From positions 2,651,001 through 2,715,000 of the forward strand of contig NZ_CP134696.1 in the NCBI RefSeq assembly GCF_031851795.1: 64,000 nt of DNA, given 5' to 3'. Under the pieces are notes generated by a model. That model was given only the letters and a program-made list of their open reading frames with translations. It ran no database searches and was not told the DNA's origin. Every line of letters begins with the position of its first letter. The first letter of the stretch is position 1. The stretch is from Pontibacter sp. G13 (lineage in GTDB: Bacteria > Bacteroidota > Bacteroidia > J057). Shown here piece by piece: positions 47,785-63,965 of this stretch. The translations under genes were made by a program, and so were the position numbers.

Positions 47785-48579
47785 ATGCAAGATTTTCAAT
47801 CAGCTGTTCTGGAACGAAGCCATGAGATTCCCGTGGTGGTGGACTTCTGGGCCGAATGGTGTGGTCCCTGCCGCGTGTTAGGGCCTGTAATCGAAAGCTT
47901 GGCACAAGACGCCGCAGGCCGATGGGAACTAGTCAAAGTGGACACAGAAGCTCATCAGGAGCTCGCTCGTCAATATGCTATTCAGAGCATCCCAGCGGTC
48001 AAGATGTTCTATCAGGGAGAAGTCATCGCCGAATTTGCAGGCGCTTTACCCAAGTCTCAAATTCAGCAATGGTTGGATAAAAACCTGCCGGACCCACGAG
48101 CTCAGCGATTGGCAGAATTGTCAGCGATGCTTCGAGGTGATCAGAGCCAATCAGCTCACGAAGCACTGAGAGAATGGGTACAACAGGATCCGAGCTACAT
48201 ACCGGCGAGAATTTCACTTGCATTCGCGGATCTAGCTGATGCGCCCCAGACAGCTTTGGACATGGTATCTGACATTCGCCCGGGTCATCCACTATTCGAC
48301 CAAGCTTCAGACCTAAAGGCCTTGGCAGAGGTACTCATAGGAAATTGCGAAGATTCACTTGCAGACTCTTTGAAGCCCTATCTCGCCACTGCCCAGACAG
48401 GAATCAAATCTCACAATTGGGAATCAGCGTTGGAGGCATTGATTCATTTGATCATGATCAATAAGCCTTGGTGCAACGAATTGAGCCGGAGAGCTACCGT
48501 GGCGATTTTCCGAATGCTCGGCGAATCCCATCCTATCACCAAGGAATTCCGCCCCCGATTTTCAAGAGCATTGTATTGA
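47785..48579 (+). CDS. CnoX/YbbN-like thioredoxin with helical C-terminal domain
   Basis: 264 residues. Residues 1-105 form a cytoplasmic thioredoxin domain with active site Trp25-Cys26-Gly-Pro-Cys29 and the cis-Pro loop SIPAVKMF. The remaining 150 residues are helical TPR-like repeats (HEALREWVQQDPSYIPARISLAFADLADAPQTALDMV ...), the layout of the YbbN/CnoX chaperone-redox proteins. Unlike E. coli YbbN it keeps a full CGPC. The hairpin array begins 63 bp after its stop codon, so its mRNA 3' end would carry the hairpins. Confidence 0.9.
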   Translation: MQDFQSAVLERSHEIPVVVDFWAEWCGPCRVLGPVIESLAQDAAGRWELVKVDTEAHQELARQYAIQSIPAVKMFYQGEVIAEFAGALPKSQIQQWLDKNLPDPRAQRLAELSAMLRGDQSQSAHEALREWVQQDPSYIPARISLAFADLADAPQTALDMVSDIRPGHPLFDQASDLKALAEVLIGNCEDSLADSLKPYLATAQTGIKSHNWESALEALIHLIMINKPWCNELSRRATVAIFRMLGESHPITKEFRPRFSRALY

Positions 48580-48642
48580 GCGTAATCCGCAAACATCCCA
48601 AAAAATCGGACGAAGCCAAATACCAAAAACTCTCCGCAGATA

Positions 48643-49000
48643 TTGGCGAAGCCAATGCAAGCCTAAAAAGGAAATATTGGCAAAGCCAAGGAGAAGAAAC
48701 TCTCTACAATTTTGGCGAAGCCAAACCAAGCCAGCCCAAAAGAGTTGGCGAAGCCAAGGAGAAGAAACTCTTTACAATTTTGGCGAAGCCAAACCAAGCC
48801 AGCCCCCAAAAGAGTTGGCGAAGCCAAAGCAGCCCAGCCCAAAAAGAGTTGGCGAAGCCAAGGAGAAGAAACTCTCTACAATTTTGGCGAAGCCAAACCA
48901 AGCCAGTCCCCAAAAGAGTTGGCGAAGCCAAAGACCAAACCTGATAAGGAAGTTTGGCGAAGCCAAAGCAGCCCAGCCCCAAAAGAGTTGGCGAAGCCAA
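48643..49000. repeat. Array of eleven short hairpins with 33-35 bp period
   Basis: The 13-bp unit TTGGCGAAGCCAA (5-bp perfect stem, GAA loop) starts at 48643, 48677, 48712, 48745, 48780, 48815, 48849, 48884, 48919, 48954 and 48988. Ten are perfect; the second has AAA instead of GAA in the loop. The spacers are 20-22 bp and fall into classes: A (GGAGAAGAAACTCT...) three times, B (ACCAAGCCAG...) three times, C (AGCAGCCCAGCC...) twice, plus single ones. A half-unit at 48610-48619 looks like a decayed member. ACTCT in class A can pair with AGAGT at the B or C junctions, so nested hairpins are possible. Confidence 0.9.
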
Positions 49001-49114
49001 CCCCCCGGCCACAGCGCGAAGGCAAAAATGCCAAGCGTCACCCAACATCCCTTTGCGCAGAGATCGTGTTCGGAGACAAGGAAGCGATGACGAAGTTTGG
49101 TCCGGCCAAATGAG

Positions 49115-49191
49115 GAAGAGCTGACGCCGTATCCGGGCACGAGATCAAGCAAAGAAGAGGTGACGTTGTATCCGGACACGAATCAAGCAAA
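49115..49191. repeat. Two-copy tandem repeat
   Basis: 49115-49153 and 49154-49191 are imperfect copies of a 38-39 bp unit sharing GTATCCGG and ATCAAGCAAA, directly after the hairpin array. Confidence 0.65.
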
Positions 49192-49249: not shown

Positions 49250-49651
49250 TTAGGCCAGCTTATAAGCTCGTTCGAGCTTACGCCATGCAGCTTCTAGGTG
49301 CATCATACAGGCATTCCAGTAACTTCTATCTCCCCTGGTAATGGTCAGATTCAGGATAGCGCTTTCATCTCGAAAGTCTTCCAGCGTCCATTGGATAAGT
49401 TCCCGCTGAATTCTGATTCCGTCTTCACAATCAGCTGGACCAGATTTGATCAGATCCAGAATAGTCTGAAGCATTACCCGAGACATATTACCTGATACAC
49501 TCGCCACCTGATAGTTACCTGCCTCAATGACAGAGATGGTATCTTCGACCGCTCTCCGAAAAGCTAGGAATGGACTTTCGGCTACCGCTTTTCTGCTCCT
49601 GGCACGTTCATATTGGTCTGTCAAGTTGTTGAGGGCTTGTTGGTTATTCAT
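49250..49651 (-). CDS. Hypothetical helical protein
   Basis: 133 residues from the ATG at 49651 (MNNQQALNNLTDQYERARSRKAV). The open frame continues 42 codons upstream, but that part crosses promoter-like DNA. It is predicted to be all-helical and soluble, with segments LAFRRAVEDTISVIEAGNYQV, MLQTILDLIKSGPADCEDGIRIQRELIQWTLEDFRDESAILNL and a basic C-terminal end. I do not recognise the family. It might be a small regulatory or bundle protein. Confidence 0.55.
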   Translation of the reverse strand: MNNQQALNNLTDQYERARSRKAVAESPFLAFRRAVEDTISVIEAGNYQVASVSGNMSRVMLQTILDLIKSGPADCEDGIRIQRELIQWTLEDFRDESAILNLTITRGDRSYWNACMMHLEAAWRKLERAYKLA

Positions 49652-49818
49652 GATTCCAGCGGTTGTTTTGGTTGGTATAATCATGTGGTTATTGTGTTTC
49701 AATCGTTGTTTCGAAAGACACATAGAATACGCCCAGCCCTGCCGACAAGTTCCGCCAACAATCTGTACTTCAGGCAATTAGATAAAATGTATAGGGAGAT
49801 ATAGTAAAAGGATTCTCT

Positions 49819-52105: not shown

Positions 52106-52293
52106 TTTGGGCGTATCCCAGCGTTCGGAGCCACATGTCCTCGCTTGAACTGGATGGTCGCTGGGTCGGTCCCGCTCCGGAGCTCGCTACGCTCGGTCGG
52201 AGATCTGGAGGCGAGACATCGCCGCCTCCAGATCTCCGACTCCTCCCAGAGGTCGGACTCCTACGGGCACCTTACGCCCCTGCAAGCCATCGC
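52106..52293. repeat. Dispersed intergenic element, copy E (short)
   Basis: It starts with the family terminus TTTGGGCGTATCCCAGCG and ends with GGCACCTTACGCCCCTGCAA, the inverse of the core block seen in copies C, D and G. Its middle includes a long palindromic hairpin centred on GGAGATCTGGAGGCG...CGCCTCCAGATCTCC (52198-52241). Confidence 0.75.
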
Positions 52294-63543: not shown

Positions 63544-63965
63544 ATGGGTGTGCCCCCGCGATCAGACCTTCTGTTCCATGCCTGGCAAGATGGTCGCGGC
63601 GTCAGGCTGTCCATGAGTCCGCTATCGCTCCCGTCCTTGCATGTGAGCCGTATGAACCGTGAGATGTTTCCCGAAATACATGTGAAGCTGAGGATCGGAT
63701 CGATTTCGTCGGACCTCGCTGGCGCTCGTCATTCCCATCCTTCACACCGCACCTGCCAGCCGCACATAGAAATCTGAAGTGCGGATGGCCTTGCCGCGGC
63801 GTAAAGTGCCTGAAGTGGCCGACCTTCGGGAGGAGTCTCCAGTCTGCGGGTGGCGACCTCTCGCCCGCAGACTGGAGACCGAGCGCAGCGAGCACGGAAG
63901 GGACTGGCCCGGCGCATCGATGTTCAAGCGTCATCCGATGGTCCGATCGCCGGGATACGCCCAAG
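63544..63965. repeat. Dispersed intergenic element, copy G (nearly full length)
   Basis: About 420 bp from the left terminus GGGTGTGCCCCCGCGA to the right terminus CGCCGGGATACGCCCAAG. It contains TCGGACCTCGCTGGCGCTCG, TTCCCATCCTTCACACCGCA, the core GCGGATGGCCTTGCCGCGGCGT, and a strong internal palindrome around CCAGTCTGCGGG...CCCGCAGACTGG (63839-63872). Confidence 0.8.

Follow-up and report, generated by a model that had tools for sequence, protein, structure and literature searches.

Tandem C-GAA-G mini-hairpins beside a dispersed structured module in Pontibacter sp. G13: a possible self-templating minisatellite next to a MITE-like element

BOX elements of Streptococcus pneumoniae are modular dispersed repeats that carry an internal module in variable copy number and that have inverted ends, target duplications and extensive predicted RNA structure (PMC3049150). 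BrickBuilt elements of Porphyromonas gingivalis, a member of the Bacteroidota, combine an intergenic MITE-like element with a minisatellite and have no Rfam match; their repeats are 23 nucleotides long, follow one another without spacers and form long stems (PMC4596501). These are the closest known kinds to the element reported here, which shares the BOX features listed and is likewise an intergenic MITE-like element plus minisatellite of the Bacteroidota without an Rfam match. As in both, a repeat block of variable copy number is attached to constant modules (seven arrays). It belongs to another phylum than BOX and apparently has another sequence (judged without an alignment), and its repeated part is a hairpin of 13 to 15 bp. 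BrickBuilt differs from it in that separate mini-hairpins on linkers are found here, with stems that differ from locus to locus and with a covarying module. What sets the present element apart from both kinds is its turn, fixed while the stems covary, together with the A/C-rich linkers and the location of the repeats outside the structured core; in the open-licence literature we know of no element with such a turn on such stems.

Sponge RNAs of the CsrB/RsmZ type show GGA loops on variable stems; the arrays described below resemble them in their repeated fixed loops and variable stems but are without GGA loops. Each array unit has the C-GAA-G turn of the DNA mini-hairpin d(GCGAAGC), for which a melting temperature of 78 C is given and which is familiar as a chemical and aptamer motif (PMC4686876), unlike the arrays here. 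Neither natural tandem arrays of d(GCGAAGC) nor arrays of this plan were found in the open-licence literature. The promoter hairpins of the phage N4 virion RNA polymerase also have a short stem and a GAA turn and are recognised as extruded single-stranded DNA, but they are single promoters in a phage (PMC12633501), whereas the present arrays are chromosomal.

The window analysed in this study is a stretch of 64,000 nucleotides from Pontibacter sp. G13 (NZ_CP134696.1, positions 2,651,001 to 2,715,000), and its relevant features are collected in Table 1. A first-pass annotation had described eleven regularly spaced hairpins, and their number, positions and spacings were found exactly as claimed. 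Ten are exact copies of TTGGCGAAGCCAA and one, TTGGCAAAGCCAA at 48677, is a loop variant with one mismatch. They start at 48643, 48677, 48712, 48745, 48780, 48815, 48849, 48884, 48919, 48954 and 48988, that is, 34, 35, 33, 35, 35, 34, 35, 35, 35 and 34 bp apart. When up to two mismatches were allowed, the motif matched 15 times in the window (eleven of these being the array), as against a mean of 2.0 and a maximum of 6 in 100 shuffles; exact matches numbered ten in the window and none in the shuffled sequences. The spacers recur in classes, as had been seen before, with periods of about 35, 69 and 104, and the proposal that the array is non-coding agrees with a period that is not a multiple of three and with its mixed frames. 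The complementarity of ACTCT and AGAGT, proposed to enclose a hairpin, is present in the array, but the hairpin enclosed is not fixed, as it can be either neighbour. The GAA strand is rich in A and C (0.65). RNA folding gave a z of −6.69 for this strand and of −1.90 for the opposite strand, and DNA folding gave a z of −5.08. The minimum-energy RNA fold joins some units to each other, as identical palindromes can pair with one another, so that the eleven hairpins do not stand out cleanly as separate structures.

Short palindromic repeats with spacers of 20 to 22 bp recall a CRISPR array, a re-reading that had been kept in reserve for the case that the spacers matched phage or plasmid DNA. The spacers recur within the array, which effectively refutes this reading; the repeat is only 13 bp long, and none of the four main spacer classes was matched exactly in viral contigs. 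Plasmids and phages likewise gave nothing by blastn, a search that is hardly sensitive to a single match of 22 bp. We regard the chance of a CRISPR-like array as negligible.

Table 1. Features of the array locus, in positions of the window
Feature	Coordinates	Strand	Basis
Thioredoxin/TPR gene, upstream, co-directional, incidental neighbour	47785..48579	+	Pfam PF00085, PF14561
Decayed twelfth CGAAG unit preceding the array	about 48605..48621	+	unit listing
Array of 11 C-GAA-G mini-hairpins (TTGGC-GAA-GCCAA), period 33-35 bp	48643..49000	+	motif count, RNA fold
Linker of about 50 nt, array to module	49001..49049	+	last hairpin 50 nt ahead of model start
Conserved structured module (TTTGC...GCAAA core 49052-49153): long hairpin, covarying stems, conserved G/A-rich internal loops	49050..49155	+	cmsearch, blastn, covariation
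39-bp tandem duplication of the module 3' half; possible second 3' arm	49115..49191	+	repeat analysis
Small convergent ORF, stop 87-88 bp beyond the model match, no Pfam family	49250..49657	-	ORF call, Pfam

Outside the window array the exact 13-mer TTGGCGAAGCCAA is absent from the whole 7.67-Mb genome (7,674,920 bases), which suggested a local accident until a pattern that kept only the paired GCGAAGC core exposed two further arrays, with outer stems AAAGC/GCTTT and TGGGC/GCCCA. Eight arrays were found in this genome, all with a constant C-GAA-G turn and with a stem sequence that differs by locus; the earlier provision that a motif present nowhere else would be a local accident is therefore inapplicable, as the exact motif is local but the plan occurs at eight loci. 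Seven of the loci are palindromic arrays, at 599644, 1596477, 1968421, 2699716 (the window), 4500254, 5013991 and 5060038; these stand beside the structured module described below and hold 4 to 22 CGAAG units. The eighth (L146, 5063539-5064408) consists of about eleven GGACC-GAA-GGTCC hairpins, mostly about 75 bp apart, and no module was detected at it at E values up to 10. More wide-spaced arrays may have been missed, because this one was seen only in a sample of 864 kb, made up of the window and 40 stretches of 20 kb (25 around module matches and 15 spaced controls). A genome-wide scan for three CGAAG at gaps of 15 to 45 bases, in which no palindrome was required, gave 84 rows, as against 100 in the reversed control, so that the count itself is without excess; it was sorting these rows by eye that brought out the seven loci listed above. 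The turn itself is the commonest one among the 956 hairpins with a three-base loop and a stem of at least 5 bp in the 864-kb sample (67 C-GAA-G hairpins versus 24 for the next turn), a sample that is not random, most of its stretches having been picked around module matches. Of these 67, 53 lie in the seven arrays upstream of the module and 10 in the eighth; the remaining 4 are in other places, and not one falls in the 15 control stretches (300 kb). Many array units contain GCGAAGC itself. The A+C content of the GAA strand is 0.59 to 0.70 in all eight arrays, compared without a matched intergenic control, and this strand has no replichore bias (four arrays leading, four lagging).

Pairing of the stems was assessed on a set of 53 distinct 17-base units around CGAAG from the eight arrays. 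Of these units, 49 are complementary at stem pair 2, 46 at pair 3 and 44 at pair 4, as against 22-26% at the same pairs of 2066 other CGAAG sites in the rest of the sample; these unit counts are not independent events, because duplication relates the units within one array. C-G, G-C and T-A predominate at the second pair, with similar variation at the third and fourth. Paired cells make up 85.7% of the array stems versus 56.5% after shuffling, and the covariation score is 0.669 versus 0.176, values that none of 500 shuffles reached; slid versions scored at most 0.173. Two of the five measures, the number of double-change pairs and the number of pair types, were not above the shuffles, because no more than five pairs entered the test. 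Matched-pair differences between stems are found inside single arrays as well, the left arms being, for example, GGCC, GGTC and ATCC in array 4500254 and GATC, GGTC and GCTC in array 5013991. Wobble intermediates are almost absent (2 G-T and 3 A-C in 159 cells), which might reflect no more than the need of very short stems for stability. The stem covariation could also come from selection on function rather than from mutation. An energy ranking of the 64 triloops was uninformative, the parameter sets scoring all C-G-closed loops alike.

The first-pass annotation had overlooked the structured module downstream, the arrays with other stems and the convergent downstream gene. The module, first noticed as a sequence common to three arrays, is about 105 bp long and lies on the same strand as the array in seven of seven cases, the last hairpin being 39 to 108 nt before the model start; by our own arithmetic, the chance of such linkage is about 3e-4 per array. 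Blastn with the module returned 46 matching pieces in this genome, and a covariance model built from 17 copies returned 47 matches (E up to 0.001, the weakest at 29-40 bits). The window copy, one of those 17, matched at 49043-49162 with 101.9 bits and an E value of 1.2e-26. After matches less than 3 kb apart were merged, there were 27 module loci, 7 with an array and 20 without. At two places the module is tandemly amplified, with five matches 189 bp apart at 4923766-4924639 and twelve matches, mostly about 114 bp apart, at 5293792-5295370.

The 17 full module copies have a mean column identity of 77% and differ by indels of one or two bases. From the outside inwards, the outer stem of the shared fold leads through an internal loop rich in A and G (AGAGAT / AGATCAA) into a stem of about 10 bp that ends in GGA/TCC; beyond it lie a conserved internal loop, the third stem, a step of CGAG/TGAG and the hairpin at the tip. 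The internal loops, by eye, are presumably akin to tandem G-A and loop-E motifs. RNAalifold placed 34 pairs on the 17 copies, 19 of them with double changes. In our own structure of 34 pairs, 90.6% of the cells are paired and 21 pairs have double changes (0 of 500 shuffles), and the covariation score is 0.380 versus 0.130 shuffled (0 of 500; the 17 copies of this genome). Among 41 distinct copies from relatives, which were aligned to the model and so lean towards it, double changes occur in 25 of the 34 pairs. On the module strand, G-T exceeds A-C by 45 to 16 in this genome and by 147 to 36 in relatives; this excess, roughly three- to fourfold, indicates that the module strand is the one maintained, which fits an RNA. 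No Rfam family reached its gathering score; the best weak matches scored 21.7 bits where 40 are required, at a place outside the module, and 17.7 bits where 70 are required. The module thereby adds to a Bacteroidia family a structured element not described before, which covaries strongly and often sits at gene 3' ends.

These results bear on whether the arrays, hairpins included, are a plain tandem-duplication accident of no consequence. Their unit classes do recur as in ordinary minisatellites, and tandem growth is common in this genome. However, eight arrays with unrelated stems have the turn and the paired arms in common, and seven of them adjoin the same module. Linkage, pairing and covariation already make such an accident unlikely, and we consider it quite improbable.

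Besides its own genome, the module model matched 7 of 59 relatives. Six of these are among the 12 of the same family, with 3, 4, 3, 23, 33 and 1 matches (23 in G007 and 33 in G009), and one, matching weakly, is among the 47 others. A class-wide draw of 295 genomes with stricter filters gave five matching genomes including the genome itself, two of them outside the family and weakly matched. A DNA pattern scan of a named genome collection (84,980 species) gave 27 contigs, every one of them from three Bacteroidetes/Bacteroidia metagenome assemblies (J049, MAG_02 and HKST-UBA03). Like a MITE, the module is short, dispersed, multi-copy and non-coding, and in G007 and G009 it is the middle of an element of about 155 bp with inverted ends and T-runs. 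The flanking-duplication test was tried on 35 of 42 copies, of which 21 were anchored automatically and 14 were not; 14 of those anchored span 155-156 bp, and 7 are cut or mis-anchored. Ten of the 14 full-span elements, all from G007 and G009, have identical flanking trinucleotides (five TAA and five TTA), and the other four are one base off. In the copies of the Pontibacter genome, which are more diverged than those in relatives, inverted ends and TAA/TTA duplications were not established by eye. Among IS5-like elements, TNA duplications are a typical feature of the IS1031 group. An IS4/5-type transposase gene (PF13340, PF01609) ends 12 bp before one module copy and was not found at the others. 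The only close match to it was the gene itself, with relatives at 43-44% in G003 (one) and in its own genome (two), four weak matches, and none in G007 with its 23 module copies. This gene is not established as an autonomous partner, being not common to the other copies and having no relative found in G007. No link to Y1 transposases (REP/BIME with RAYT) was seen: neither of the two PF01797 genes (1435526 and 5488564) lies at a module locus.

The search of the genome and its relatives that had been proposed earlier revealed the plan elsewhere in the same genome, but neither the exact motif at any other place in it nor an array in relatives. Around the modules of six relatives, 40 stretches yielded 11 single C-GAA-G hairpins, and none held an array. 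A CGAAG scan of this genome, 8 of the 12 family members and 4 members of the order (G009-G012 not included) gave matches in 9 of 13 genomes and, by eye, no array of this plan beyond the genome itself. Its counts were not clearly above the reversed control (19 versus 17 in the genome itself) except in G013 (28 versus 6), where the rows look like coding repeats, and in G002 (17 versus 8), where they belong to a 24-bp repeat of another kind. Pairs of GGCGAAGCC were sought in 100 genomes including this one and were found elsewhere only in G007 (one pair) and G020 (two pairs), again without an array. Array and module were unmatched in plasmids, phages and viral contigs. As a separate observation, the 24-bp tandem repeat of G002, CGAAGGAGCCTGCCCTGAGCTTGT, occurs at many places and on many contigs of that relative.

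Pfam was run on all 16 neighbours of the eight arrays. The upstream neighbours are DUF2490, S9 peptidase, GH3, thioredoxin/TPR, DUF3817 and OmpA genes and two without a Pfam match; those downstream are of sugar epimerase type, NmrA type, DNA polymerase III alpha, FabH type, zinc dehydrogenase and gamma-glutamyltranspeptidase (this last following the eighth array, 5063539-5064408), with two unmatched. A crude ORF call made the upstream gene co-directional at only five of the eight array loci and the downstream gene convergent at all eight, with the stop within 90 bp at seven. Because the upstream neighbours differ in family and are co-directional at only five loci, the suggestion that the array protects the thioredoxin mRNA finds no support, and the thioredoxin gene is one neighbour among many; the constant neighbour is the convergent downstream gene. 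Among 40 module copies in relatives, also by a crude gene call, the downstream gene is convergent in 27 and co-directional in 11 of 38; stop codon and element end often overlap. In the DNA polymerase III alpha gene (L137 10749-15191 on the minus strand, the same as L045 8067-12512), residues 768-1065 match the intein splicing domain PF14890.

The constant convergent gene, with its stop within 90 bp in seven cases, would suit a bidirectional terminator or insulator between genes, a barrier that the array would lengthen. In relatives, T-runs seen by eye follow the element's hairpin on both strands, and the elements often abut stop codons. Such T-runs, as an intrinsic terminator would show, are absent after the array hairpins (by eye) and after the module of the window, and at one locus an apparent separate terminator (by eye) already precedes the element. 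We judge this explanation very unlikely.

The reading that we favour, tentatively and at slightly less than an even chance, is that of a self-templating mini-hairpin minisatellite beside a modular MITE-like element, the stems being kept at the DNA level and the module at the RNA level. The array would be the part that varies within a composite intergenic element of mobile origin, which has the order: tandem C-GAA-G mini-hairpins; about 40 to 110 nt; and the structured module of about 105 bp. The module would form the central part of a small non-autonomous (MITE-like) element, one that lands where genes end and in many cases on the stop codon itself, and it is probably kept as a folded RNA on the module strand, because its compensatory stem changes are rich in G-U pairs. 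Beside it the array would have grown as a minisatellite by tandem duplication, and this largely bears out the earlier idea of a mobile short repeat expanded by slippage, the array being part of a dispersed, mobile-derived element. Its hairpins would probably be maintained at the DNA level: their turn is that of the exceptionally stable d(GCGAAGC), and an array hairpin, when single-stranded, would snap shut and promote slippage. Because one arm would template the repair of the other, the two arms of a stem would change together and the turn would remain constant. One known mutational route, template switching at imperfect inverted repeats, extends the identity shared by the arms (PMC7202029, PMC3820800). 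This minisatellite reading is favoured because the stems are nearly free of wobble pairs, because they change in matched pairs and because the turn is exceptionally stable as DNA; the near-absence of wobble in the stems, set against the G-T-rich module, is why the former are placed at the DNA level and the latter at the RNA level. The arrays, their constant turn, paired stems, module linkage and polarity, module covariation and flanking duplications in relatives were observed, and transposase-driven mobility, hairpin-templated maintenance and an RNA role of the module are inferred. Counting against this reading, the only eight arrays found lie in one genome, one array has no module, and 20 of the 27 module loci have no array. 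The absence of replichore bias runs against simple lagging-strand slippage, which might predict a bias. Eight arrays with 53 distinct units offer a natural, replicated case in which an exceptionally stable DNA turn is fixed and the stem varies in matched pairs, and they make it directly testable whether such hairpins persist by selection or by hairpin-templated repair.

Next in rank is a functional RNA, in which a putative transcript of the GAA strand, its hairpins spaced by unstructured A/C-rich sequence, would show its fixed C-GAA-G loops to a hypothetical RNA-binding protein in the manner of a CsrB/RsmZ sponge, with the module as a stable 3' end. Consistent with it are the constant loop on variable stems, the A/C-rich GAA strand of all eight arrays, the much lower fold z of that strand in the window, the strand bias of the module given by G-U pairs, and the placement of array and module on one strand in seven of seven cases. 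However, an upstream gene is co-directional at only five of the eight arrays, units pair with one another in the minimum-energy RNA fold, arrays were not found at the modules of relatives, and the C-GAA-G turn is special as DNA rather than as RNA. A functional RNA of this kind therefore seems to us possible but doubtful. Behind it we place 5- to 6-bp DNA hairpins that negative supercoiling might extrude on the GAA strand as putative protein sites, a candidate landing pad or decoy between genes. Supercoils accumulate at convergent gene 3' ends, and all eight arrays precede one. The N4 P1 promoter hairpin shares the plan of a 5-bp stem, a GAA loop and a C-G closing pair (PMC12633501). We nonetheless hold extruded sites to be unlikely. 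Taken more broadly, tandem mini-hairpins with one fixed C-GAA-G turn, freely covarying stems and an A/C-rich strand, anchored to a mobile structured module, might constitute a new multi-site platform, either an RNA sponge or supercoil-extruded DNA hairpins, for a putative dedicated binding protein; this, too, is a minority possibility in our view.

Another dispersed repeat, R, of about 130 to 210 bp and with a palindrome at its centre that is specific to each locus, occurs in the window at 52159-52291 (plus strand) and 63778-63917 (minus strand). It was excluded as a part of the element described above, as it sometimes adjoins modules but is mostly independent of them, with 31 clusters of matches in the 864 kb sampled.
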